In this document: piece by piece, positions 15,418 to 42,783 of the stretch
Numbering within the stretch: position 1 is the stretch's first letter
Layout of the letters: each line of letters opens with the position of its first letter
NCBI RefSeq assembly: GCF_900112595.1
Contig: NZ_FOMI01000003.1
Coordinates: 62,001-126,000, forward strand
DNA length: 64,000 bases
Origin: Algibacter pectinivorans
Lineage (GTDB): Bacteria; Bacteroidota; Bacteroidia; Flavobacteriales; Flavobacteriaceae
Reading direction: 5' to 3'
Notes under the pieces: generated by a model
What the model saw: only the letters and a program-made list of their open reading frames with translations
Told to the model about the DNA's origin: nothing
The model's database searches: none
Program-made: the position numbers and the translations under genes

Positions 15418-16005
15418 ATGCCATATAAGAGTTTTGAGGAATACAGTGATGATGTTACTGATAATGTTAAAAATAAATACCAAGAAATTATTACAGATTT
15501 AGGTGAAGATACTAGTCGTGATGGCTTGTTAAAAACACCAGAGCGTGCTGCAAAAGCAATGCAGTTTTTAACCCAAGGTTACGATCAAGATCCGGTTGAG
15601 ATTCTTAAAGGCGCTATGTTTAAGGAGTCTTATAACGAAATGGTAATTGTAAAAGATATTGAATTGTACTCGCTTTGCGAACACCATATTTTACCATTTT
15701 TTGGTAAGGTGCATATCGCTTATATTCCTAATGGGCAAATTGTTGGTTTAAGTAAATTACCTAGAATTGTTGATGTGTTTGCAAGACGTTTACAAGTGCA
15801 AGAACGCTTAACTCAACAAATTTTAGATTGTATAAATGATACCCTAAATCCACAAGGTGTTGCAGTTGTTATTGAGGCTTCGCATATGTGTATGATGATG
15901 CGTGGTGTACAAAAGCAAAATTCTACCACAACAACTTCTGGTTTTAGAGGTCAGTTTGAAAAAATTGAAACTAGAAATGAGTTTTTAAAGCTTATTGGAA
16001 AGTAA
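15418..16005 (+). CDS. folE: GTP cyclohydrolase I
   Basis: Converts GTP to dihydroneopterin triphosphate, the first step of folate and pterin synthesis, as a cytoplasmic decamer. Zinc ligands are visible in [12 protein letters not shown] and in [10 protein letters not shown]. The substrate-binding [15 protein letters not shown] and the C-terminal TTTTSGFRG are intact. The frame is open from a TTG at 15385, but I start at the ATG at 15418 (195 residues). The peptide before it is not part of the family, and a TAAACTTG promoter-like box overlaps that TTG. Confidence 0.96.
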
Positions 16006-31541: not shown

Positions 31542-32093
31542 ATGTTTCAAGTTGACATTATTGAACAATGTAAACGGAATAACCGGAAGGCGCAATTGCA
31601 GTTATACAACCAGTACTGCGATGGTATGTATATTGTTGCAAAACGGTTTTTAAAGGATGCTGCCGATGCTGAAGATGTGGTACAAGAGGCCTTTATTAAG
31701 GCGTTTACTAAGCTGCATCAATACCAAGCTGAGGTTACTTTTGGTGCATGGTTAAAACGTATTGTGGTGAATAAGAGTATTGATTTTTTAAAGGCTAAAA
31801 AGCACACGCTTGTTGAGTTAAACGAGGTGCACCTTAAGGTTATTGATACGCCTAAAGACGACAAATGGTTGGTAGAAGATACGGTAACATTAAGCGATGT
31901 TAAATTGGCTATTAACGCTTTGCCAGAAACGTATAAATATGTTGTGATGCTATATTTGATTGAAGGTTACGACCATCAAGAAATTTCGGAGATTCTAGAT
32001 ATTTCTGAAGTAGCATCGAGAACACAACTATCTAGAGGAAAAGTAAAATTACAAAAACTGTTAACACTTAAAAAAGATGGCACAAGACATTAG
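31542..32093 (+). CDS. ECF-type RNA polymerase sigma factor
   Basis: A sigma-70 family protein of 183 residues. Region 2 has YNQYCDGMYIVAKRFLKDAADAEDVVQEAFIKAF and FGAWLKRIVVNKSIDFL. Region 4 ends with EGYDHQEISEILDISEVASRTQLSRG. An in-frame ATG at 31512 would add ten residues that do not fit the family, so I use the ATG at 31542. It overlaps the putative anti-sigma gene by 17 bases, so the pair is likely co-translated. Confidence 0.93.
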   Translation: MFQVDIIEQCKRNNRKAQLQLYNQYCDGMYIVAKRFLKDAADAEDVVQEAFIKAFTKLHQYQAEVTFGAWLKRIVVNKSIDFLKAKKHTLVELNEVHLKVIDTPKDDKWLVEDTVTLSDVKLAINALPETYKYVVMLYLIEGYDHQEISEILDISEVASRTQLSRGKVKLQKLLTLKKDGTRH

Positions 32094-32655
32094 AGAGTTG
32101 TTTAAAAACGACCAGATAAAACATGAGGAGATGCCTAAAAACCATCAAAATCGTTTTCTTGAAAAATTGGATGTTGCAATGCCCGAAAAGCAAGCTGCTA
32201 CATTTGGTTGGCTTAAAATTGCCGCCAGTATTGTGGTGCTTTTAGGGGTGAGTTTTGGAGCTTATAAGGTAATTGAATCGCCCATAAAAGGTAGCACACC
32301 AGCGGTGGTTAGTACTAAAACTATGGAAACAAAATCGTTGGGTGATATCTCGCCAGGTTTAAAAAAAGTGGAGGATTATTATTTAGCTAGCATAAATTTA
32401 GAGTTGGCAAAAATGACCTATACGCCAGAAACTAAGGAGTTGTTTGATGGGTATTTAAACCAGTTAAATGAACTTGATAAAGCTTACCAAAAACTATCTT
32501 TAGAGCTCACCGAGTCTGGACCAAGTGAGTTAACAGTTAATGCCTTAATTGATAATTTAAAACTGCGTTTAAATTTATTGTATCGATTAAGAGCACAATT
32601 AAAAACATTTAATACTTCTGATGGTATAGCCAATGAAGTATCTCAATCAATCTAA
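32077..32655 (+). CDS. putative membrane anti-sigma factor
   Basis: A 192-residue protein. A cytoplasmic N-terminal part (about 1-45, with HEEMPKNHQNRFLEKLDVAMP) resembles the start of Bacteroidota anti-sigma proteins. One membrane helix follows (about 46-64), then a helical extracytoplasmic part. Its overlap with the sigma gene supports an anti-sigma role. This is inferred from position and layout, with no strong motif. Confidence 0.75.
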   Translation: MAQDIRELFKNDQIKHEEMPKNHQNRFLEKLDVAMPEKQAATFGWLKIAASIVVLLGVSFGAYKVIESPIKGSTPAVVSTKTMETKSLGDISPGLKKVEDYYLASINLELAKMTYTPETKELFDGYLNQLNELDKAYQKLSLELTESGPSELTVNALIDNLKLRLNLLYRLRAQLKTFNTSDGIANEVSQSI

Positions 32656-32667
32656 AAAAATCAAAAA

Positions 32668-34245
32668 ATGAACAGTTTTTATATAAAAATCAAATTTGTG
32701 GTGCTCTGCTTTCTTATTTCGGGAAGTATAGCAGCACAACAAAAATTAACCAAAGTATCGCAATCTATAAAAGTAGATAAAGATGTTGTGGTAGATTTAA
32801 ACACCAGTTACTGCAATATTGTGTTTGACACATGGAACAAAAACACTGTAGAGATAGAGGCTTATATTGAAGGCGAAAAATTAAGTAAAGACCAGCTAGA
32901 TGATGCTTTAAAGCAATGGCATATAGATATTGATGCTACTACAAATAAAGTAATAATTAATGCTGGTAGTGGACATGCTCCAAATGCTATGTGGGCCCAT
33001 CATGAGGCTTACGATTGCGATAATTGCGACGACGATTATGGTGTTGGTGCCATTTTAAATGAATTGAAATTTGAACTTGCTGATATGCCAGAGATGCATA
33101 TTAATATTCCGGAAATACCGGAAATGCCAGAAATACCACAAATGTTTGAAATGCCCGAATTACCAGAATTACCAGAAGGCGTTAATGCTGTTGCTTTTGA
33201 TTATGAAGCCTATAAAGAGCAGGGAGAGGATTATTTGGAGAAATGGTCGCGTAAATTTGAGTCTAAATACGGTAAAGACTACGCTAAAAAAATGGAAGCT
33301 TGGGGCGAAAAATTCGGAAAAGAGTGGAGTGACAAGTATGGTGATGATTTTGCTGAAAAAATGGAAGCTTGGGGCGAGAAGTTTGGAGAAGAGTGGGGCG
33401 AAAAATATGCCGAACGTATGGAAGAATGGGGCGAGCGTTTTGCAGAGCGCATGGAAGCTCAAGCCAGTAGAGTGGAAGCCCAAGCAGAACATATTGCTGC
33501 CAATGCCGAACGTATGGCGGCACAAAAGGAACGCGCTATGATGCATCGCGAAATGGCTAAGGAACATGCCAAAGACCGTAAAGCGCACCTTAAGGAACGT
33601 GCTGTTTTAATTAAAGAAAGAGAGCTAGAAATAGAAAAGCTTTTGGATAATAAGTCGGCTATTAAAGTTAAAAAAACGATTAAAATTAAAATACCTAAGG
33701 ATGCTAAATTACGAGTAAATGTTAAGTATGGCGAAATAGAATTTGCTAATAATATTGATAATTTAAAAGCAGATTTAGCATACACAAAGTTTAAAGCTTT
33801 AAGTATTAATGGAAGTTCTACTTCCATTAATGCTTCATATTCGCCAATACAGATTACGCACTGGAATTTGGGTGAGTTGAATTTAAATTATGTTAAAAGT
33901 GCAGATATTGAGCATGTTGCTCATTTGGTTTTAAATCTAACATCTTCGGAGGTGGATATAGAATCTTTAACAGGAAGTGCTATAATTGATAGTAATATTG
34001 GCGATGTAGATATTTATAATATTGAAGATAGTTTTAATAACTTAAATATTATTCTACAAAACAGTAATGCTGTTATTGGATTGCCTAAAACAGATTATAG
34101 TATGCAATATAAAGGCACGCATTCTCGTTTGGCACAGCCAGATCAGGCTGTAAAAAGTAATACCTCTAATTTTTCTACAGGAAATCCTTCTACTGGAAAA
34201 ACAATTTTAATTAATGCTAAATATAGCGATATTACTATGCAGTAA
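32668..34245 (+). CDS. exported protein with Trp-rich helical repeats and adhesin-like beta C-terminus
   Basis: A 525-residue protein with a signal peptide (to SIAAQ, residue 24). An N-terminal beta region is followed by a Pro/Met/Glu/Ile-rich stretch (about 148-172, EIPEMPEIPQ-like). A long charged helical region (about 185-335) has three near-identical EAWGEKFG-type units and then Ala/Glu/His-rich coiled coil. The C-terminal 190 residues resemble DUF4097-type beta-helix surface proteins. It is third in the sigma/anti-sigma operon, so it is probably an envelope-stress or surface product controlled by that sigma factor. Confidence 0.8.
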   Translation: MNSFYIKIKFVVLCFLISGSIAAQQKLTKVSQSIKVDKDVVVDLNTSYCNIVFDTWNKNTVEIEAYIEGEKLSKDQLDDALKQWHIDIDATTNKVIINAGSGHAPNAMWAHHEAYDCDNCDDDYGVGAILNELKFELADMPEMHINIPEIPEMPEIPQMFEMPELPELPEGVNAVAFDYEAYKEQGEDYLEKWSRKFESKYGKDYAKKMEAWGEKFGKEWSDKYGDDFAEKMEAWGEKFGEEWGEKYAERMEEWGERFAERMEAQASRVEAQAEHIAANAERMAAQKERAMMHREMAKEHAKDRKAHLKERAVLIKERELEIEKLLDNKSAIKVKKTIKIKIPKDAKLRVNVKYGEIEFANNIDNLKADLAYTKFKALSINGSSTSINASYSPIQITHWNLGELNLNYVKSADIEHVAHLVLNLTSSEVDIESLTGSAIIDSNIGDVDIYNIEDSFNNLNIILQNSNAVIGLPKTDYSMQYKGTHSRLAQPDQAVKSNTSNFSTGNPSTGKTILINAKYSDITMQ

Positions 34246-34269
34246 ATCTACTTTTATATTTTGGCATTA

Positions 34270-34944
34270 TTACCTGTTTATTTGCCAGAATTCTAATTTT
34301 CTTCGCGTAACAAAACCAAGTTTTTTATACAGATTTATAGGCCCAAGATTAGTTTGGTCTACATGTAAAAAAGGTGTTTTGTTCTTTTCAAATATTTTAT
34401 TGGATGTATGGGTAACTAGCTGTTTAGCGTAACCATTTCCAACATAATCTGGGTGTGTTATTACACCGCTAATTTCGGTAAACTGCTCTGTTTGCATACG
34501 TTCCCCTGTAATGGCTACCAATTTTTCATCCTTAAAAATGCCAAAGTAGCGACCTAGCGTATTGGTTTTAGGTTTAAAAAAATCGGGGTAAGCAATGGCA
34601 ACTAATGCCAAAATTTCTTTTTGGTGATTTGGTTTAAGTTCTACTATGCTTTCGGTTATGGGATGGTCTATTTTTTTATATAGTATCATTTGTAAACCAA
34701 CATATTGTATAGGTGGTTTAAAATTGGAAGGCATGTTTGGTTTTTCGCCTACCATAAAAAAGGAAGGTGTTAATTTAGCATGTTCCAGTATAGCAGCAGC
34801 GGTATCGGCTCCTTTTATAAAGGCCCCAAAAGGTGTAAAATCGGGATGATACATTTTAGTGTTCCCATAATCTATACCTTGTTGGGTATGTTTTTCTGTT
34901 AGTGAAAACCAAACGGGATTATCTAGAACATTTTCGTTAGGCAT
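34270..34944 (-). CDS. GNAT-family N-acetyltransferase
   Basis: A 224-residue acetyltransferase. The acetyl-CoA loop is in GVITHPDYVGNGYAKQLVTH (about 155-175), followed by PFLHVDQTNLGPINLYKKLGF, the usual C-terminal beta-alpha block. The N-terminal half is divergent. The substrate is unknown. It lies four bases downstream of miaA and probably shares its transcript. Confidence 0.88.
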   Translation of the reverse strand: MPNENVLDNPVWFSLTEKHTQQGIDYGNTKMYHPDFTPFGAFIKGADTAAAILEHAKLTPSFFMVGEKPNMPSNFKPPIQYVGLQMILYKKIDHPITESIVELKPNHQKEILALVAIAYPDFFKPKTNTLGRYFGIFKDEKLVAITGERMQTEQFTEISGVITHPDYVGNGYAKQLVTHTSNKIFEKNKTPFLHVDQTNLGPINLYKKLGFVTRRKLEFWQINR

Positions 34945-34948
34945 AGTA

Positions 34949-35866
34949 TTAAATAATATGAGCGTTTAATTGCTTTGTAATCGTTTCTATTGGGGTATCG
35001 AAATTAAACCAAAGGGTATCGTCTTGTCTTTTAAACCAAGTAAGCTGACGTTTGGCAAATCGACGGGTGTTTTTTTTAATTTCGGAGGTGGCAAATTCTA
35101 AATCCCAAGTCCCATCTAGATAGCTAAAAAGTTCTTTATATCCAACCGTATTTAGAGCATTAAGGTTCTTGAAATCTAGTAATGCTGTTACTTCGTCTAG
35201 CAAACCTTCAGCCATCATAATATCTACACGCTGGTTTATACGTTGGTAAATAAGAGCTCTATCTGCCATTAAACCAATAGTAATGGTTTTAAAATTTCGT
35301 TTGGCTTTCCCTTGGTTTAAAAAAGAAGAATACGGTTTACCTGTGCCTATGCAAATTTCTAAAGCGCGAATTACACGATGTGGGTTAGCTATGGCTATGC
35401 TATTATAAGAGGTACTATCTAATGCTTGCAATTGGGCTTGAAGCGATTCTAACCCATGGGTTTCTAATTGGGAATTTAAGGCTTCGCGAATGCTAGGATC
35501 TACTTCCGGAAAATGGTCTAAGCCTTTTGTAACGGCATCGACATACAAGCCTGAGCCACCAACCATAATTACCACATTATGAGCTTTAAATAAGGAATCG
35601 AGACATTGCAGTGCATCCTTTTCGAAGGCCCCAACATTATAATTGTCCGTTATCGATTTATGATGTATAAAGTGATGTTTAGCACCTGCGAGTTCCTCGG
35701 GTGATGGTGCGGCAGTACCTATTTGCATCTCCTTGAAAAACTGTCGTGAATCTGCGGAGATAATTTCGGTGTTATAGTGCTGCGCCAACTTAATACTAAG
35801 TGCCGTTTTTCCTATGGCTGTTGGGCCAATTATGGAAATTAAATATTTAGAATTCGAGTTTATAAT
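34949..35866 (-). CDS. miaA: tRNA dimethylallyltransferase, apparent ATT start
   Basis: Adds a dimethylallyl group to A37 of tRNAs. The P-loop IGPTAIGKTALS and the following EIISADSRQFFKEM are present, as are GGSGLYVDAVTKGL and RFAKRQLTWFKR near the C-terminus. The P-loop lies upstream of the first TTG (35788). The frame is open back to TAG at 35867-35869 with no ATG, GTG or TTG before the P-loop. The first codon after the stop is ATT (35866-35864), giving 305 residues, normal for MiaA. No ATG lies in any frame just upstream. Confidence 0.92.
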   Translation of the reverse strand: MINSNSKYLISIIGPTAIGKTALSIKLAQHYNTEIISADSRQFFKEMQIGTAAPSPEELAGAKHHFIHHKSITDNYNVGAFEKDALQCLDSLFKAHNVVIMVGGSGLYVDAVTKGLDHFPEVDPSIREALNSQLETHGLESLQAQLQALDSTSYNSIAIANPHRVIRALEICIGTGKPYSSFLNQGKAKRNFKTITIGLMADRALIYQRINQRVDIMMAEGLLDEVTALLDFKNLNALNTVGYKELFSYLDGTWDLEFATSEIKKNTRRFAKRQLTWFKRQDDTLWFNFDTPIETITKQLNAHII

Positions 35867-36046
35867 CTAGTATTTTATAATTGGTAAAGTTAATTTGAAT
35901 AAATGATTAATACCAATTTATTTGGAGGACAAACCATAATTTAGATTGCTTTTTTTTCTGGGTTTCATTGTTATTTTTTATTGGTTTACGTTGTAAAACG
36001 CTTTAATGTAGCGTATTGAAAAGATATAATATGTAAAATAATTTTA

Positions 36047-36069
36047 TAAACGCAACAGAGTTGCATTTA
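36047..36069. promoter_or_regulatory. candidate Zur operator upstream of the aztD-like gene
   Basis: A 23-bp palindrome with arms TAAACGCAAC and GTTGCATTTA around AGA, nine of ten positions paired. The core GCAAC-N3-GTTGC is perfect. It overlaps the -33 element of the promoter and recurs upstream of merC. Confidence 0.7.
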
Positions 36070-36090
36070 TAAGTTTTTGTTATATATTTG
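36061..36090 (+). promoter_or_regulatory. promoter of the aztD-like gene
   Basis: TTG (36061-36063), 19 bases, then TATATTTG (36083-36090) is a good Bacteroidota promoter match. The start codon follows 26 bases later. The operator palindrome overlaps the -33 box, which suggests repression. Confidence 0.72.
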
Positions 36091-36116
36091 CGCCAAAATC
36101 TATAAAACACAAAAAA

Positions 36117-37334
36117 ATGAAAGTATTCAAAGTTTTAAGCTATGTGCTAGTTTTAAGCATTATTACGTCCTGTTCAAATGACGATGCAGATGATATTACA
36201 AACGATTCTCAAATTGTTGAAGATGAACATACCGCTTTACTTATTTCCGATTCGGAATCCAATGTTCTAAATTTTTTAAAGCCTTACGATAACACAATTC
36301 AAGATTTTGAGGCCAGTTTTAGCGGCGGTAGTATTTATGCAACCGAATCTGGAATTTATGGCGTAATTACGCACAGAAGTAATAATTTTACTGAAACCTT
36401 TAATTTTGGAGGAGAGATTCCTCATGGTAGTCATAGTCATGATCTTGGAGAGCAAGGTATGGCAGCTATAAGTTTTGAAAGCCAAAGTCCAACACACTTT
36501 AAATCAGAGCATGGTTATGTTGCGGTTTATAATGATGGCGATGCTACGTTAAGCCTGTTTAATGAAAGCAGTATACATAATGGATCTTCTCCTGTAAGAA
36601 CTATTAATACGGGTTCTGCAGCTCATCATGGTGCTATGGTGGTTTTTCCAAATGGAACGTTAGCAGTAACCGAATTGGGTAATGGCGCAGGTTTACCAGA
36701 ATCGGCTAAAATTATTAGTCAAAATGGAGAGATTCTTTTTGAAGATAAACCGGTAATTGTAACTTCTGGCATTCATGGAAATGCAGGCCATGATGATGTT
36801 GCTGTTTTTGGATCAAATTCTGGAGTTTTGGTTGTAAAAAGTAATGGAGACCAAAGCTTAATTAATTACCCAGACGATTTTGAAGACGATGTTTGGTTTG
36901 GAAGTTTATTAAGTACTAATGATGCCAATTTGTTTGTAGGATATACAGGTAGTAAAGGGGCTTATTTTATTAATATTGCAGATGAAGAAATAACACCAAT
37001 TCTTGAGAGTAGTAATTTGTTCAAATGTATCAAGTCCAAAGATGGCGACTTGATAGCAAGTTTAACAAAAACAGGTCTTTTAAATATTACTGAAGTGTCA
37101 ACAGGACTAGTAAAATATCAAGGGAAATTAAATATTGCAATGGATACCGAAGCTACCGATCATGGCTCTGTAACTAGTAATATTGATTTAAGTGAAGATT
37201 TTATTTATGTATCTATTCCAACACAGAAAAAAATAATTCAAATAGAACTTAATGATTTAAGTAATATGAAGGAATTTAATCTTAATATTACGCCTTATCA
37301 ATTTAAAATTTTAGGTGCTCATTTTGATCATTAG
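36117..37334 (+). CDS. AztD-like zinc chaperone lipoprotein
   Basis: A 405-residue protein. A lipoprotein signal ends IITSC (Cys19), followed by an Asp-rich linker. A beta-propeller-like body carries His clusters at conserved AztD positions: H103-x-x-H106-x-H108 in PHGSHSHDLG, PTH127F, EH132GYVAVYNDGD, AAH170H171GAMV, and IHGNAGHDDVAVF. AztD is a periplasmic zinc chaperone that hands zinc to the AztABC importer; no such importer is adjacent. The neighbouring Zur-type regulator and shared palindromes support a zinc role. The family call is by recalled pattern. Confidence 0.75.
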   Translation: MKVFKVLSYVLVLSIITSCSNDDADDITNDSQIVEDEHTALLISDSESNVLNFLKPYDNTIQDFEASFSGGSIYATESGIYGVITHRSNNFTETFNFGGEIPHGSHSHDLGEQGMAAISFESQSPTHFKSEHGYVAVYNDGDATLSLFNESSIHNGSSPVRTINTGSAAHHGAMVVFPNGTLAVTELGNGAGLPESAKIISQNGEILFEDKPVIVTSGIHGNAGHDDVAVFGSNSGVLVVKSNGDQSLINYPDDFEDDVWFGSLLSTNDANLFVGYTGSKGAYFINIADEEITPILESSNLFKCIKSKDGDLIASLTKTGLLNITEVSTGLVKYQGKLNIAMDTEATDHGSVTSNIDLSEDFIYVSIPTQKKIIQIELNDLSNMKEFNLNITPYQFKILGAHFDH

Positions 37335-37350
37335 TAAAATAAATAAGGAA

Positions 37351-37386
37351 AAAAAAGCACGTATTACTATACGTGCTTTTTTTTTA
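37351..37386 (+). terminator. Rho-independent terminator after the aztD-like gene
   Basis: The stem GCACGTA / TACGTGC with a 6-nt loop is flanked by a run of A on the left and of T on the right, so it can work in both directions. It lies between convergent aztD-like and zur genes. Confidence 0.85.
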
Positions 37387-37464
37387 GTATTATTTGGGTG
37401 TACGATGCTTTTATAGCAAAATCGCTTTTATATTAGTAAGTAGAAGTTTAAATGTAGTTGGTTT

Positions 37465-37845
37465 TTACTTACTACAAGATTCGCAGTTACCTTGAATTAA
37501 AATTTGAGAAACTTCAACTTGTCTATTAGGAATATTAGGTAGAGCAACTTCAATTTCTAAACAATCTACTTTACCACAATTTAAGCATTGAAAATGTGGA
37601 TGAGAATCAAAATGTTGCGCATGGGTACAAGAATTACATTTTGCATACCATTTAATGCCACTTTTATCCAAAAAGGAATGCACTACGCCGTCGTCTTCTA
37701 ATTTGTCTAATACGCGGTATACCGTAGTTTTATTAACCTTTGCACTAAGACGTTTAATTAATTCGATGGCAGAAATGGCACCTGTACTATTGCTAAATTC
37801 GCTAAGTAAAAGTTCAATAGATTGTGTTTTTCTAATAATTCCCAT
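37465..37845 (-). CDS. zur: Fur-family repressor, probably Zur
   Basis: A 126-residue Fur-fold regulator. The winged helix includes INNNT-like VNKTTVYRVLDKLEDDGVVH (about 37-56). Metal-binding residues are C70-x-x-C73, a His cluster H76, H79, H82 and H84, C87-x-x-C90, C95 and C121-x-x-C124, an unusually Cys-rich set that suits zinc. It is divergent from merC and convergent with the aztD-like gene. The palindromes at all three promoters suggest autoregulation and control of both neighbours. Fur and Zur specificity cannot be proven from sequence. Confidence 0.85.
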   Translation of the reverse strand: MGIIRKTQSIELLLSEFSNSTGAISAIELIKRLSAKVNKTTVYRVLDKLEDDGVVHSFLDKSGIKWYAKCNSCTHAQHFDSHPHFQCLNCGKVDCLEIEVALPNIPNRQVEVSQILIQGNCESCSK

Positions 37846-37849
37846 AGAA

Positions 37850-37881
37850 CAAAGTTATTACAACTAGGTTGAAATTACAAA
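37850..37881 (-). promoter_or_regulatory. promoter of zur
   Basis: On the minus strand TTTG (37881-37878), 20 bases, then TAACTTTG (37857-37850) fits the consensus. The weaker palindrome CAAC-TAG-GTTG lies between the two boxes. Confidence 0.65.
37861..37871. promoter_or_regulatory. candidate second Zur operator, zur/merC divergent region
   Basis: CAAC-TAG-GTTG matches the inner eight positions of the GCAAC-N3-GTTGC core, with A in place of the outer G and C. It lies between the -33 and -7 boxes of zur and contains the TTG used as the merC -33 box. Confidence 0.55.
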
Positions 37882-37898
37882 TTATATAATTACTTTTG
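37869..37898 (+). promoter_or_regulatory. promoter of merC
   Basis: TTG (37869-37871), 19 bases, then TACTTTTG (37891-37898). Its last G is the first base of the operator palindrome. The merC ATG is 28 bases downstream. Confidence 0.65.
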
Positions 37899-37910
37899 CA
37901 ACTTAGTTGC
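37898..37910. promoter_or_regulatory. candidate Zur operator at the merC transcription start
   Basis: GCAAC-TTA-GTTGC is a perfect 13-bp palindrome with the same core as the one upstream of the aztD-like gene. It overlaps the end of the -7 box and the expected transcription start of merC, a position suited to repression. Confidence 0.7.
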
Positions 37911-37926
37911 GTTAACAAAAAAATAA

Positions 37927-38322
37927 ATGAAATTAGTTTTAGTTAAACCAGATGTTTTTGGAGCAGTAGCAAGTTTTTTATGCGTAGTGCATTGTGTGGC
38001 TACACCTTTTCTATTTGTAGCTCAAGTTTGTTCCTTAGATGGTTGCGAAACCAGCCCAATTTGGTGGAGCAGTTTAGATTATATATTTTTAATTATTTCC
38101 TATTTCGCGGTAGCTCGTTCAACGAAAAACAGTTCAAAACTATATATAAAATCATTACTGTGGATTAATTGGTTTTCTTTATTGTTATTAATTGTAAATG
38201 AAAAATTTCAGTTCGTTTCAATACCTGAAACTATAACGTATTTAACAGCACTATCTTTAGCAGTATTGCATCTGTATAATTTAAAATTTTGTCAATGTAA
38301 AAACAATACCTGTTGTAGTTAA
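37927..38322 (+). CDS. MerC-domain membrane protein
   Basis: A 131-residue protein with four hydrophobic segments. The first includes C19-V-V-H-C23 as in MerC metal-transfer proteins. A second pair is at C35 and C40, and the tail reads FCQCKNNTCCS with four Cys. MerC proteins carry metal ions across the inner membrane. Next to a Zur-type gene and under its operator, zinc uptake is a reasonable inference, although MerC is best known for mercury. Confidence 0.85.
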   Translation: MKLVLVKPDVFGAVASFLCVVHCVATPFLFVAQVCSLDGCETSPIWWSSLDYIFLIISYFAVARSTKNSSKLYIKSLLWINWFSLLLLIVNEKFQFVSIPETITYLTALSLAVLHLYNLKFCQCKNNTCCS

Positions 38323-38381
38323 AATACTAAACGTAGAGTTATTAAATATAGGAGCACAGCACTTATAGCCTTATCGATAAG

Positions 38382-39227
38382 CTAAACTATTTCAGCACCA
38401 CAGACATAGCAATATTTTGCTTCGCTACGTACATCGCTAGTTAAGCACTCTTTACAGGTTTTAGTTTCTATTATAACCTGTTCTTCTTCTTTTACTTCTA
38501 CTTTTTTCTGCGAAGCAAACTCTGCAGTAACAATACCGGTTGGTACAGCAATAATACCGTAACCAATTATCATAATAACAGAAGCTAGAAATTGCCCTAA
38601 AGGTGTAACAGGAGCAATGTCTCCATAGCCCACAGTTGTTAGGGTTACGATTGCCCAATATACACTTCTTGGGATACTGGTAAACCCACTACCTTGATCT
38701 CCTTCAATAAGGTACATAACGGTTCCTAGAATAACACAAATAATAACTACAAACGATACAAAAACCGCGATTTTAACTCTACTAGCTCGCAGTGCTTTTA
38801 AAAAATTATTGGATTCGCCCATAAAACGGGCTAGTTTTAAAATTCTAAAAATACGCATTAAGCGTAATGCTCTTAAGGCTACTAAGGAGTGCGATCCTAC
38901 CAAGAAAAACGATAAGTATTTGGGTATTGTAGATAGTAAATCTATAACGCCATAAAAACTAAATACATATTTTTTAGGGCTCGAGTTGGTAATAACTCTT
39001 AAAATATATTCGATAGTAAAAAGAATGGTTATTATCCATTCGGCAATGTTAAGGAAACTATGGTATTTGGCATCAATAGTATTTACACTCTCAAGCATTA
39101 CCAATAAGATACTTGTAAGTATTACTACTAAAAGTACAAGATCGAACAATTTTCCAGCCGGTGTATCCGAGTGATAAATAATTTTATAGATCCTAGTTTT
39201 CCAATGTTTATCGAATAACTTTTTCAT
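38382..39227 (-). CDS. voltage-gated K+ channel with C-terminal zinc ribbon
   Basis: A 281-residue six-helix channel. The S4-like segment RALRLMRIFRILKLARF carries regular Arg/Lys residues. The pore has the selectivity filter TLTTVGYGDIAP. After the last helix a short linker leads to a C-terminal ribbon, C-K-E-C then 12 residues and C-Y-V-C (about 258-277). The ribbon could bind zinc and tune the channel or recruit a partner. It is convergent with merC. Confidence 0.9.
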   Translation of the reverse strand: MKKLFDKHWKTRIYKIIYHSDTPAGKLFDLVLLVVILTSILLVMLESVNTIDAKYHSFLNIAEWIITILFTIEYILRVITNSSPKKYVFSFYGVIDLLSTIPKYLSFFLVGSHSLVALRALRLMRIFRILKLARFMGESNNFLKALRASRVKIAVFVSFVVIICVILGTVMYLIEGDQGSGFTSIPRSVYWAIVTLTTVGYGDIAPVTPLGQFLASVIMIIGYGIIAVPTGIVTAEFASQKKVEVKEEEQVIIETKTCKECLTSDVRSEAKYCYVCGAEIV

Positions 39228-39257
39228 GATATCAAATGTAACAAAAAGTTATATTAA

Positions 39258-39371
39258 TTAATGGCAGCAGCTTAGTTGGTTTTTTAAGAAGTAAGGTTTT
39301 AAGTTAAAGTTTTTGCAAAAAAATACCGAAAAAACAGAAAATAGAAAAATAAATAAAGTGAATGAATTCAT
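39258..39371 (-). CDS. possible 37-residue small membrane protein
   Basis: A short frame with ATG three bases after the stop of the exonuclease-GIY-YIG gene. The peptide begins MNSFTLFIFLFSVFSVFFC, a single hydrophobic helix, followed by a basic stretch and the ending SCCH. The spacing and Cys/His tail suggest a real small protein, but the AT-rich composition could also produce it by chance. No family is recognised. Confidence 0.3.
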   Translation of the reverse strand: MNSFTLFIFLFSVFSVFFCKNFNLKPYFLKNQLSCCH

Positions 39372-39374
39372 ATT

Positions 39375-40739
39375 TTAATCTAAGCTAATAATTTTTAAAC
39401 GTTTATTCTTTCGCAAGTAATTTTGAATAATATGCTGCGCATCTCTATTATTTTCCATGGGTGTAATAATGGATTCTAATACCTTAAGATTCGTTATTTG
39501 GTAGTTTAAATTGAAAAAGCCTATGCCTTTAAAAACGCCATTTTCAATTAGTATAGCACTGCGCTCATCGACCGCTCGACCTCTATCGACTATAACCATA
39601 TTTTTGTTGGAATAGCTGTTTTTTTCAATTAAAGCCTCAACACGTTTGTTGTAAGATTCTGCAGATTCTTTTTGGATACAAGCGCCTTCGCAAGCTTTAA
39701 TATCGTATCCAAAACAACTTGTTTTTGTTTTATATAAACCAGCAAGCTTTTGGCATAAGTTATAATCTTCAACCGCTCTAGTAATAAAACTTTTTCCGCT
39801 CTCGCGATTACTAAAGGTTGTTATGGCTTTTTTACGACCATCGGCCACATCAATTTTAAGATTTAAATAGCCGTTATCGTCTTTAAAAACATATAAGGCA
39901 TGGGTAAATGAAGATCGACGTAACGCTCTATTATGTAGCGGCTTATTCTTTTTAATTTCTTCGCTTTCTTTTAGTAGTGCTACCAATTCGCTACCTGTAG
40001 CTTCGTACGTTACCGAGGCTACTTTAGATTGTAGTTTTTTTGATTTGGAATTGGTGCCTGTAAAATGCTGATTAATACGCTTTTTTATATTGTTACTCTT
40101 GCCAATATAAATAATGTCGCCATCGGATTTATGAATGTAATAAACGCCAGTTGTAGAGGGTAAAGTTTCAATAATATCTAATAGCTTGGGTTCCATTTTT
40201 CGCTTGGTACTAAGCTTTATAGATTTTTGTATAATGGTTTTAGTGGTGTCTTTTGCTAGTAATAATTTAAATAGTTTTACGGTGGCTAAAGCATCGCCAG
40301 AAGCCCGATGTCTGTCGGTTACAGGAATACCTAAAGAGCGCACTAATTTTCCTAGACTATAAGAGTCCTGATCTGGAATTAAGTTTTTAGAAAGTTCTAC
40401 AGTACACAGGGTTTTACGCTGGTACTCGAAGCCTAATCGTCTAAATTCTGTGCTTAAAATGCGGTAATCGAATTGGGCATTATGCGCCACAAGAATACAG
40501 TCTTGAGTAATTTCTACTATACGCTTAGCAACCTCATAAAATTTAGGTGCATTACGAAGCATATTACTATTAATACCGGTTAGATTTACTACAAAAGGTT
40601 GGATATCGCGTTCTGGGTTTACTAAGCTTATAAATTGATCGACCACCTCATGACCATCAAATTTATAAATAGCAATTTCAGTTATACCTTCTTCATTAAA
40701 TTTACCACCTGTGGTTTCTATGTCTAGTATTGCGTAAAT
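39375..40739 (-). CDS. DnaQ-like exonuclease fused to UvrC-type GIY-YIG domain, apparent ATT start
   Basis: A 454-residue repair-type nuclease. The N-terminal DEDD exonuclease has YAILDIETTGG, then VAHNAQFDYRIL and HRASGDALATV. From about residue 195 a UvrC/Cho-like GIY-YIG domain follows (GVYYIHKSDGDIIYIGKSNNIKKR) with its Cys-rich tail. The DIETTG motif lies upstream of the first GTG (40646). The frame is open to TAA with no ATG, GTG or TTG, and ATT (40739-40737) stands exactly where the family has its Met before YAILDIE. Confidence 0.9.
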   Translation of the reverse strand: MYAILDIETTGGKFNEEGITEIAIYKFDGHEVVDQFISLVNPERDIQPFVVNLTGINSNMLRNAPKFYEVAKRIVEITQDCILVAHNAQFDYRILSTEFRRLGFEYQRKTLCTVELSKNLIPDQDSYSLGKLVRSLGIPVTDRHRASGDALATVKLFKLLLAKDTTKTIIQKSIKLSTKRKMEPKLLDIIETLPSTTGVYYIHKSDGDIIYIGKSNNIKKRINQHFTGTNSKSKKLQSKVASVTYEATGSELVALLKESEEIKKNKPLHNRALRRSSFTHALYVFKDDNGYLNLKIDVADGRKKAITTFSNRESGKSFITRAVEDYNLCQKLAGLYKTKTSCFGYDIKACEGACIQKESAESYNKRVEALIEKNSYSNKNMVIVDRGRAVDERSAILIENGVFKGIGFFNLNYQITNLKVLESIITPMENNRDAQHIIQNYLRKNKRLKIISLD

Positions 40740-40755
40740 AGTATACCTTTATTTT

Positions 40756-41427
40756 TTAATTTGTATAATTTCTTGAACCAAATATACTACTTCCAACTCG
40801 AATCATTGTACTACCCGCTGCAATTGCTAAAGGAAAATCGCCACTCATACCCATACTAATAGTTTTTAAGCTGCAGTATTGGGTTTGTAAGGCTTTTAAA
40901 GCTTCGAATGCAAATTTTAAACGATTGAACTCCTTGGTTATTTGGTTTTCATCAGTAGTAAAAGTAGCCATTCCCATAACACCAACCACATTAATATTTT
41001 TTAATTCTGAAAATTTTTCCGACTGAATAATTTCTGATGCTTCTTCAAAAGACATTCCAAATTTAGAATCTTCTGATGCTATTTTTAGTTGAAACAAGCA
41101 ATCAATTACACGATTATGTTTTTTTGCTTGCTTATTAATTTCTTTTAATAATTTGTAATTATCAACACCATGAATTAAGCTCACAAATTCGGCCATGTAT
41201 TTAACTTTATTCCGCTGCACGTGGCCAATCATGTGCCATTCAATATCTTTTGGCATGTCTTGGTATTTTTCTACCATTTCCTGGATTTTATTCTCTCCAA
41301 AAATACGCTGACCCGCCTCATAAGCTTCCATTAAATCGCTAACAGGTTTGGTTTTTGAAACGGCTACTAAAGTAACATGCTCCGGGAGTTTAGCTTTTAT
41401 GTTGTTTAGGTTTTCTTTAATGCTCAT
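40756..41427 (-). CDS. YggS-family PLP-binding homeostasis protein
   Basis: A 223-residue TIM-barrel protein. The PLP lysine is in LVAVSKTKP, followed by GENKIQEMVEKY, WHMIGHVQRNKVKY and the C-terminal SMGMSGDFPLAIAAGSTMIRVGSSIFG. These are the family signature for pyridoxal phosphate homeostasis. It is complete and lies just downstream of the truncated membrane protein gene. Confidence 0.94.
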   Translation of the reverse strand: MSIKENLNNIKAKLPEHVTLVAVSKTKPVSDLMEAYEAGQRIFGENKIQEMVEKYQDMPKDIEWHMIGHVQRNKVKYMAEFVSLIHGVDNYKLLKEINKQAKKHNRVIDCLFQLKIASEDSKFGMSFEEASEIIQSEKFSELKNINVVGVMGMATFTTDENQITKEFNRLKFAFEALKALQTQYCSLKTISMGMSGDFPLAIAAGSTMIRVGSSIFGSRNYTN

Positions 41428-41494
41428 GTATCTATAAATTCTGTTTTATTAATTTAGAAAAAGCCTCTAAATCGTTAACATTATAAAAAATATG

Positions 41495-41893
41495 TTATGG
41501 GATGTAAATAGGTTGATTTTCAGCAATATATATTAACCAATAGTTGTTTTTTGAAACGGCTTTTTGGCTGCTATTCGCCACTAATTTCGATTCATTTCCT
41601 ACTCTTTTAAAATACAAATACGCATTATTAAAAGATAAATGGGTTTCTGAAAATACGGGGTTATGGCCTTTTAAACCTGTCCAAAAATAGAGGTAAATTG
41701 ATATTATGAAAGGGTATGAAAATGAGAAAATAATAAAAAAGGTACTAAAACTATCGTTTCCAAACTTAGGTAAATTGAAAATAGCAATAAGTATCATGAT
41801 GAGGTAAAGCCACCATGATTTTTTAAATCGAGTTAATAAAACAATTTTATAATAGTTCTCTTTAGTTAATGAAAAAGCCTTGGTTTCAATCAT
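41495..41893 (-). CDS. YcxB-like membrane protein, truncated by an in-frame stop
   Basis: 132 residues with two hydrophobic helices (about 28-45 and 52-72) and a C-terminal beta part. The frame ends IYIP-TAA at 41497-41495. Reading on in the same frame gives HIFYNVNDLEAFSKLIKQNL and a TAG at 41432, 20 more residues that look like the missing C-terminus, just before the yggS start. A Lys AAA to TAA change would explain it. It overlaps the upstream dehydrogenase stop (TAATG). The family call is tentative. Confidence 0.7.
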   Translation of the reverse strand: MIETKAFSLTKENYYKIVLLTRFKKSWWLYLIMILIAIFNLPKFGNDSFSTFFIIFSFSYPFIISIYLYFWTGLKGHNPVFSETHLSFNNAYLYFKRVGNESKLVANSSQKAVSKNNYWLIYIAENQPIYIP

Positions 41894-42783
41894 TATTTTA
41901 AAAACTGTTTCGAAACTTTTTCTGCTTTTCTACTTTCGGAATAATCGTAAAACCCTTCACCAGATTTAACTCCTAATTTACCTGCTTGCACCATATTAAC
42001 TAATAATGGGCATGGGGCATATTTAGGGTTTTTAAAACCGTTATACATTACATTTAAAATAGACAAGCAAACATCTAGTCCAATAAAATCGGCAAGTTGT
42101 AATGGTCCCATTGGGTGTGCCATTCCTAACTTCATTACGGTATCAATGTCATTAACACCAGCAACACCATTGTAAAGGGTTTCAATAGATTCGTTAAGCA
42201 TGGGCATTAAAATGCGATTGGCTACAAAACCAGGGTAGTCGTTTACTTCAACAGGGTCTTTTCCTAAAGTTTCAGAAAGTTCCATAATGGTTTTAGTAAC
42301 GGTATCGCTTGTGTTGTATCCTCTAATTATTTCAACCAGTTTCATGATTGGAACCGGATTCATAAAATGCATACCAATAACTTGCTCTGGTCTAGATGTT
42401 TCAGCTGCAATTTGGGTTATAGATATGGACGATGTGTTACTAGCTAAAATGGCAGCTTTTGGACACGCTTGGTCTAATTGCCTAAATATTTTAAGTTTTA
42501 GGTCTAAATTTTCGGTAGCAGCTTCTACAACTAAATCAATGGTTTTTACAGCGTCTTCTAAATTGGTATATGTGCTTATATTTGCTAAAGTATTAGTTTT
42601 ATCTGCTTCCGAAATTTTTTCTTTAGCAATCATTCTATCTAAATTCTTAGCAATAGTATTCATGCCTTTTTCTAAAGCGGCTTCATTAATATCTATAAGC
42701 GAGACTTTAAATCCAGATTGCGCAAAGGTATGCGCAATACCATTACCCATAGTGCCTGCACCAATTACTGCAATTTTTTTCAT
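41893..42783 (-). CDS. 3-hydroxyacyl-CoA (3-hydroxybutyryl-CoA) dehydrogenase
   Basis: A 296-residue NAD-dependent dehydrogenase. The Rossmann loop is IGAGTMGNGIA at the N-terminus. The central SNTSSISITQIA and the catalytic His block MHFMNPVPIMKLVEII are present. The C-terminal domain contains NRILMPMLNES and GMAHPMGPLQLADFIGLD. It acts in fatty-acid or butyrate metabolism in the cytoplasm. It starts directly after the Gfo/Idh gene with no gap. Confidence 0.95.
   Translation of the reverse strand: MKKIAVIGAGTMGNGIAHTFAQSGFKVSLIDINEAALEKGMNTIAKNLDRMIAKEKISEADKTNTLANISTYTNLEDAVKTIDLVVEAATENLDLKLKIFRQLDQACPKAAILASNTSSISITQIAAETSRPEQVIGMHFMNPVPIMKLVEIIRGYNTSDTVTKTIMELSETLGKDPVEVNDYPGFVANRILMPMLNESIETLYNGVAGVNDIDTVMKLGMAHPMGPLQLADFIGLDVCLSILNVMYNGFKNPKYAPCPLLVNMVQAGKLGVKSGEGFYDYSESRKAEKVSKQFLK

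Follow-up and report, generated by a model that had tools for sequence, protein, structure and literature searches.

A conserved, promoter-embedded palindrome as the candidate operator of a Zur-type regulator in Algibacter pectinivorans and related Bacteroidota

In the 64,000-nucleotide stretch of the Algibacter pectinivorans genome analysed here (the window), three neighbouring genes are associated with an inverted repeat, GCAAC-N3-GTTGC. The first, on the forward strand (36117–37334), encodes an AztD-like protein of 405 amino acids with a signal peptide and, as judged by eye, a lipoprotein-type Cys. It is followed on the reverse strand by a gene for a Fur-family regulator of 126 residues (37465–37845; Pfam FUR match), which we read as being of the Zur type and refer to as zur, and then, on the forward strand, by merC (37927–38322; Pfam MerC), encoding a MerC-like membrane protein of 131 residues with four predicted helices. 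Exact copies of the palindrome, to which no strand can be assigned, lie upstream of the AztD-like gene (GCAACAGAGTTGC, 36052–36064) and of merC (GCAACTTAGTTGC, 37898–37910), and a weaker copy with two mismatches (ACAACTAGGTTGA, 37860–37872, core CAAC-TAG-GTTG at 37861–37871) is present in the zur promoter, all as given in a preliminary description of this DNA. The same description had the sites overlapping promoter boxes or lying between them, and this is borne out by the promoter geometry at merC, zur and the AztD-like gene. The −7 consensus of Bacteroidota promoters is TAnnTTTG. For the AztD-like gene, the −33 TTG (36061–36063) lies in the right arm of the palindrome, and 19 nt after it comes a −7 box of the Bacteroidota type (TATATTTG, 36083–36090, forward strand). 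On the reverse strand, the zur −33 box TTTG (37878–37881) precedes the zur −7 box (TAACTTTG, 37850–37857, identified from the sequence and from comparison of loci) by 20 nt, and the weak copy is located between the two. On the forward strand, the last G of the merC −7 box (TACTTTTG, 37891–37898) is the first base of the strong copy. Going beyond the preliminary description, we find that the weak copy is also what supplies the predicted merC −33 TTG (37869–37871).

This arrangement is conserved. A search of the family genomes at an E-value of 1e-20 found the regulator in 34 of 199, and the upstream regions were compared in two sets of loci, the 30 family loci returned and then 63 loci on named genome contigs, whose titles mostly place them in Flavobacteriales or in higher groups of Bacteroidota and in one case in Balneolales. 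The loci are related and hence not independent events, the identity of the regulator to the window protein falling to 46%. Within 260 bp upstream of zur, 48 of the 63 loci carry an exact palindrome (likewise 48 within 250 bp) and 59 carry one with at most one mismatch; of the other four, L124 and L128 have an exact copy at a greater upstream distance, next to merC, and L114 and L125 a two-mismatch copy. Near zur, merC is found in 56 of these loci and folE in 31. When all 5-bp inverted repeats with spacers of 0 to 7 were ranked blindly, GCAAC-N3-GTTGC came out on top in both sets, with 48 of the 63 loci and 25 of the 30, and the runner-up word, neither part nor variant of the palindrome, reached only 8 of 63 and 2 of 30. 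Conservation upstream of orthologues, which the preliminary description had proposed as a check, is thus found for zur–merC. Moreover, the sites are paired, at about −65 and −27 relative to the start of zur, and 38 of the 41 pairs that could be measured are spaced by 38 bp. The strong copy of the window occupies the −65 position, for which the consensus is TTAATGCAACTNAGTTGCAAAT, and the −27 operator is weaker, with T instead of C as the final base of the right arm in 26 of 52 cases. Since the weak copy of the window sits at −27, it represents a conserved operator and not a chance near-match. Read along the merC strand, a TTG in the −27 operator is followed after 19 nt by a TAnnTTTG whose last G opens the −65 operator; 43 of the 63 loci have the TAnnTTTG fused to the strong operator in this way, and in 37 a TTG lies exactly 19 nt upstream of the fused box, in 36 cases inside the second operator. 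The 38-bp spacing is accounted for by its being equal to the merC core promoter, from the −33 TTG to the −7 box. We consider it very probable that the Fur-family protein whose gene lies between the sites uses the palindrome as its operator, and that this protein is a Zur-type zinc-sensing repressor; DNA binding, zinc as the signal and repression are what we infer from the sites, their positions and promoter geometry, their conservation and the gene content.

For the AztD-like gene conservation of the site was also found, but thinly, in one close orthologue and in distant operons. The protein matches the solved AztD structure 6cmk over residues 41–400 (E 3e-13) and the NCBIfam AztD model with 85.2 bits, below the cut-off of 400; it has no Pfam match, and no ATP-binding cassette (ABC) transporter genes were recognized by eye among the open reading frames (ORFs) of positions 32000–42000. 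Orthologues are rare. They occur in 2 of the 199 family genomes, that of A. pectinivorans included; among 395 genomes of the order 13 have one, and 11 of these belong to a single genus (g127). The closest of them (genome G543, 59% identical) has an exact palindrome in the same promoter register. In the 11 loci of genus g127, with proteins 39–42% identical to ours, aztD ends a run of genes on the same strand, in which a TonB receptor gene precedes it in nine loci and a COG0523 gene is present in L227. At least one near-palindrome with no more than one mismatch heads the run in all 11 loci, and in nine there is a 38-bp pair, mostly with one mismatch per site; gaps within the runs extend to several hundred bases, so that a single transcript is an assumption. 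Two of the loci, L227 and L229, also have a diverged zur opposite what by eye is a MerC-like gene, with the palindrome between the two. The COG0523 gene under the paired box of L227 (7288–8535) is split into several short ORFs, with 66% identity along it by tblastn, and is either a damaged gene or one affected by sequencing errors.

The MerC-like protein covers the whole of the Pfam MerC domain (PF03203; 75.3 bits, cut-off 27.6). Among 32 chosen aligned sequences, G12, C19, H22, C23, P27, W46 and H115 are invariant and a Cys-rich tail nearly so, and in the structure model (mean predicted local distance difference test score, pLDDT, 77.1) C19, H22 and C23 fall in helix 1 and H115 in helix 4 of four helices. 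MerC is present in 30 of the 34 genomes with zur versus 22 of the 165 others (p = 2e-17), although four of the 34 zur matches are weak (33–38% identity) and account for three of the four zur genomes without MerC, and three of the 52 MerC genomes score below the Pfam cut-off. In a sample of merC loci (30 fetched, 29 scored), a palindrome with at most one mismatch was found within 220 bp upstream of merC in 17 of 19 loci that also contain zur and in 3 of 10 that do not, some of the latter having zur farther off; the MerC family is thus not always under the palindrome. The MerC-like gene is not in a mer-operon context, its neighbours being zur, folE and COG0523 genes, and the protein used as a query gave a match in one of 72,556 plasmid records. 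The window also has, convergent with merC, a gene (38382–39227) for an ion channel protein (Pfam Ion_trans) whose C-terminal tail contains CxxC...CxxC.

A second merC, followed by folE, forms an operon with a palindrome on another contig of the same genome (C20, 24291–25785; L005, L074), one that the preliminary description does not mention. There a single operator gives the −33 TTG, 19 nt from the −7 box TACATTTG. The divergent regulator gene looks fragmentary, its 44%-identical part beginning at query residue 31 and its N-terminal part lying, by eye, in another frame. The FolE encoded on C20 is an extra copy, as the genome has four matches to PF01227, the best-scoring of which lies in the window (15469–15996). 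The idea that the C20 enzyme is a zinc-free substitute was rejected: by eye, it keeps CEHH and HLC, which we take to be the zinc-ligand motifs of FolE.

What else the palindrome may control was surveyed with an extended pattern, YGCAACNNNGTTGCR, in two samples of 30 genomes, one made up of the 34 with the regulator less the four weak matches, the other drawn from the 165 without it. It occurs 55 times in 28 of the 30 regulator genomes (4 times for a reversed control) and 11 times in 10 of the 30 genomes without the regulator (control 0; Fisher p = 2e-6). Away from the zur–merC sites, we sorted the 23 regulator-genome sites into 12 promoter-like, 3 unclear, 6 inside ORFs and 2 terminator-like; two of the 23 are the AztD-like and ndk sites of A. 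pectinivorans, and the others were judged from 19 stretches of DNA, as were those of the second sample from 11. The promoter-like sites precede the AztD-like gene of A. pectinivorans, merC–folE (L074, L062), COG0523 genes (L056, L058), genes for a flavin adenine dinucleotide (FAD) oxidoreductase (L064, L069 and, by eye, L068), a His-rich lipoprotein gene (L057) and an ABC transporter gene located after a COG0523 gene (L066), and a promoter-like pair lies between LCIB-like and sulfide-quinone-reductase-like genes (L072). The FAD oxidoreductases with an upstream palindrome are thioredoxin-reductase-like by eye (L064, 2849–3847; L069, 4104–5060; L068, 3124–4173). The unclear sites are in L063 and, twice, L065, those inside ORFs in L055, L059, L061, L067, L070 and L071, and the terminator-like ones are at ndk of A. 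pectinivorans and in L060. The 11 sites in genomes without the regulator comprise five inside ORFs (L076, L080, L082, L083, L084), three behind an ORF of 139–159 residues as at ndk (L075, L081, L085; the ndk identity is putative) and three promoter-like ones, at a gene for a small Cys/His protein (L077) and at two other Fur-family genes (L078 and, by eye, L079), which the script had placed inside ORFs and which we judged to be upstream of the true start. The TonB receptor of L078 scored 150 bits against ZnuD (cut-off 950).

In the operons divergent from zur at the 63 loci, merC is present in 51, folE in 27, COG0523 in 14 (17 ORFs), a TonB receptor gene in 7, and an ABC ATPase and PhoX in 6 each, the clusters being named by Pfam from one or two representatives each. 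Two further clusters of unknown genes occur in eight loci each; they have no Pfam match and in L104 (3883–4853) encode proteins of 158 and 165 residues. Two COG0523 representatives scored 561 and 566 bits against ZigA (cut-off 600). The PhoX gene is found in Polaribacter and Cellulophaga loci (L109, 3167–4825; L112, L116, L127, L131, L133). PhoX works without zinc, and its presence in zur-divergent operons suggests a zinc-sparing swap of phosphatases. COG0523 and folE-type genes are Zur targets elsewhere (PMC6103462, PMC2770081).

The regulator itself contains a Fur-family domain (PF01475, 36 bits, cut-off 23.1), and its AlphaFold model is fair (mean pLDDT 78.8), with N-terminal helices followed by strands. 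Residues of metal-ligand type are strongly conserved: C70, C73, H84, C87 and C90 are invariant in 64 sequences, and H82, C95, C121 and C124 are kept in 97–98% of them (C121 and C124 in 63 of 64); in 30 aligned sequences C70, C73, H84, C87, C90, C121 and C124 are all invariant. Both CxxC pairs of the structural zinc site (C87/C90 and C121/C124) are present, and C70, H82 and H84, candidate regulatory ligands, align with a Cys and a His run of 3mwm, which we take to be a Zur and in which these residues may be the zinc-sensing ones.

Several observations nevertheless weigh against a Zur-type regulon under this protein. The curated Zur model NF008646 gave the regulator 24.3 bits, with a cut-off of 167, and no NCBIfam Fur-family model reached its cut-off, the best being that of iron Fur (30 bits). 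Among six solved relatives at E 1e-3 or better, the metal-uptake or zinc entries 3mwm, 7vo0 and 2o03 match with E-values similar to those of the iron Fur structures 8j6w, 2w57 and 2xig. Furthermore, 32 of the 55 extended sites are the zur–merC sites themselves, which partly make the contrast with other genomes, leaving 23 elsewhere; two of the 30 regulator genomes (G010, G164) have no extended site; and promoter-like sites away from zur–merC were found in 9 of 30 regulator genomes versus 3 of 30 without the regulator, a modest difference. The single-site layout upstream of our AztD-like gene has one further case only, that of G543, and at the ABC-3 importer genes of A. pectinivorans (contig C12) the nearest site among the matches listed is about 4 kb off and has two mismatches; for the ZIP gene of this genome, on C17, the listing extends to sites with one mismatch. 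To these points is added the existence of a second Zur-like protein in the same genome. Five one-mismatch copies of the 15-mer form of the palindrome lie away from the known promoters, four of them inside ORFs and the fifth at C17:2558, where it heads a run of genes (C17, 2558–7941; L235) for a small Cys/His-rich protein, a TonB receptor, the second Zur-like protein and a His-rich metal P-type ATPase (names given by eye). Transposase-like ORFs lie near this run. The C17 protein has the same invariant Cys and His residues as the window regulator, and in L078 and L079, two loci of genomes that lack a window-type regulator, it is a different Fur-family gene, next to a TonB receptor gene, that has the palindrome. 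It could be, then, that the zinc operators are bound mainly, or also, by the C17 protein, the 'also' form of this explanation overlapping with our own. The constant placement of the palindrome pair ahead of the window-type regulator gene, and a C17 site that by eye lacks the 19-nt promoter register, make the C17 protein the unlikely candidate.

Another explanation keeps the window regulator and its operators and changes the signal. Instead of zinc, the protein would sense iron, manganese, nickel or a soft metal (mercury or cadmium, for example), and the MerC-like protein would belong to another metal system. The MerC family is named for mercury, and family models and solved relatives fail to separate zinc from iron or manganese sensors; since zinc and iron structures match about equally, the sequence of the regulator alone does not name the metal. 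The gene content does favour one. Paralogues of folE, a ZigA-like GTPase of the COG0523 family, AztD-like proteins and PhoX, a set typical of zinc starvation, share the box or the operon in relatives, as do TonB receptors, and only one of four scanned window proteins is mer-like. We regard a metal other than zinc as very unlikely, and the proposal of zinc in the preliminary description gains support from these neighbours.

If the palindrome is the operator of a Zur-type repressor, a zinc-bound dimer of the regulator would occupy the GCAAC-N3-GTTGC arms. At merC, where the −33 and −7 boxes are themselves part of a pair of operators spaced by 38 bp, the bound repressor would cover both boxes, and the weak operator, being located in the zur promoter as well, would provide autoregulation; at the AztD-like gene and at the second merC–folE operon, a lone operator would act through the −33 box only. 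Under zinc shortage the operators would be emptied and zinc-scavenging and zinc-sparing genes switched on, namely those for the MerC-like protein, the AztD-like lipoprotein and the extra FolE, and in relatives those for the ZigA-like GTPase, TonB receptors and PhoX.

The genome-wide abundance of the palindrome contributes little to the argument. In the window, the two exact copies are far more than chance would give (100 dinucleotide shuffles had 0.05 on average, and none had two), whereas no excess is seen once up to two mismatches are allowed (24 versus 18.8 expected). The whole genome has five exact cores versus two for a reversed control pattern, and 99 versus 69 copies of the 15-mer form with up to two mismatches. 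Three of the five exact copies are at promoters, of the AztD-like gene, merC and the second merC–folE operon; one falls within a dinB-like gene, and one (contig C9, 63938–63950; L001, 1501–1513) forms the stem of a hairpin resembling a terminator, located between ndk and a csp-like gene (all three names by eye). The same core is found behind a similarly placed ORF of 139–159 residues in four other genomes (L060, L075, L081, L085). A reading as terminator holds for the ndk copy and was rejected for the promoter copies; such terminator-like stems after ndk are a trap for motif scans. Because five copies stand against two in the control, the genomic count alone is weak evidence, and position and conservation carry the case. 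These low counts and the copies in a hairpin and in coding DNA might suggest palindromes that arose by chance or act as terminator-like hairpins, with no regulator. This is extremely unlikely in view of the first rank of the palindrome in both sets of zur upstream regions, its fixed spacing and its promoter register.

A role of the MerC-like protein in zinc import is plausible, if conjectural. ABC-3 importers were matched in 18 of the 30 regulator genomes (in G153 weakly) and not in the other 12, and a search for exact sites of the extended palindrome in these 30 genomes found none near ABC-3 importer genes. ZIP genes are present in 29 of the 30, which weakens any claim of MerC as sole importer. 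As a tentative and more far-reaching proposal, the MerC-like protein may be a zinc importer of an undescribed kind, a four-helix inner-membrane carrier with a metal path formed by C-x2-H-C and a His, derepressed by Zur through two operators held in a 38-bp register set by the −33/−7 promoter, and doing the job of ZnuABC in many flavobacteria; mercury uptake by classical MerC would then make use of a borrowed zinc-import fold.

The Zur-type reading of the preliminary description is thus supported, now on considerably stronger evidence. The regulon proposed here is of a known kind, in a lineage for which no description was found; it has a DNA box of its own, two operators built into the promoter and a MerC-like protein as partner. 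The Zur regulons of Proteobacteria, Firmicutes, Actinobacteria and Cyanobacteria likewise have a Fur-family regulator, palindromic promoter sites and COG0523, folE-type and TonB targets (PMC6103462, PMC2770081). They differ from the present case, in which GCAAC-N3-GTTGC is embedded in −33/−7 promoters and a MerC-like gene is the commonest partner. With AztD of the AztABC system, our AztD-like protein shares the matches to 6cmk and to the NCBIfam model; unlike AztD, it is far below the family cut-off, has a lipoprotein-type signal by eye and no recognized adjoining ABC genes, and in nine of the 11 g127 loci follows a TonB receptor gene. Classical MerC has CxxC. The MerC-like protein shares the whole PF03203 domain and four predicted helices, and differs in having C-x2-H-C in helix 1, a conserved His in helix 4 and a linkage to zur. 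The words bacteroid- and flavobacter- have zero occurrences in the main text of the Zur reviews PMC6103462 and PMC8000910, and no Zur box, MerC-like Zur target or AztD regulon of Bacteroidota was found in a literature coverage that leaves subscription journals mostly outside, so that novelty is provisional.

Zinc control in Bacteroidota seems to be little described. An operator consensus with a promoter register would make zinc regulons readable in many genomes, and the palindrome would give a role to the merC-like and aztD-like genes and to several unknown ones. It also puts forward, in the MerC-like protein, a testable new type of zinc importer.

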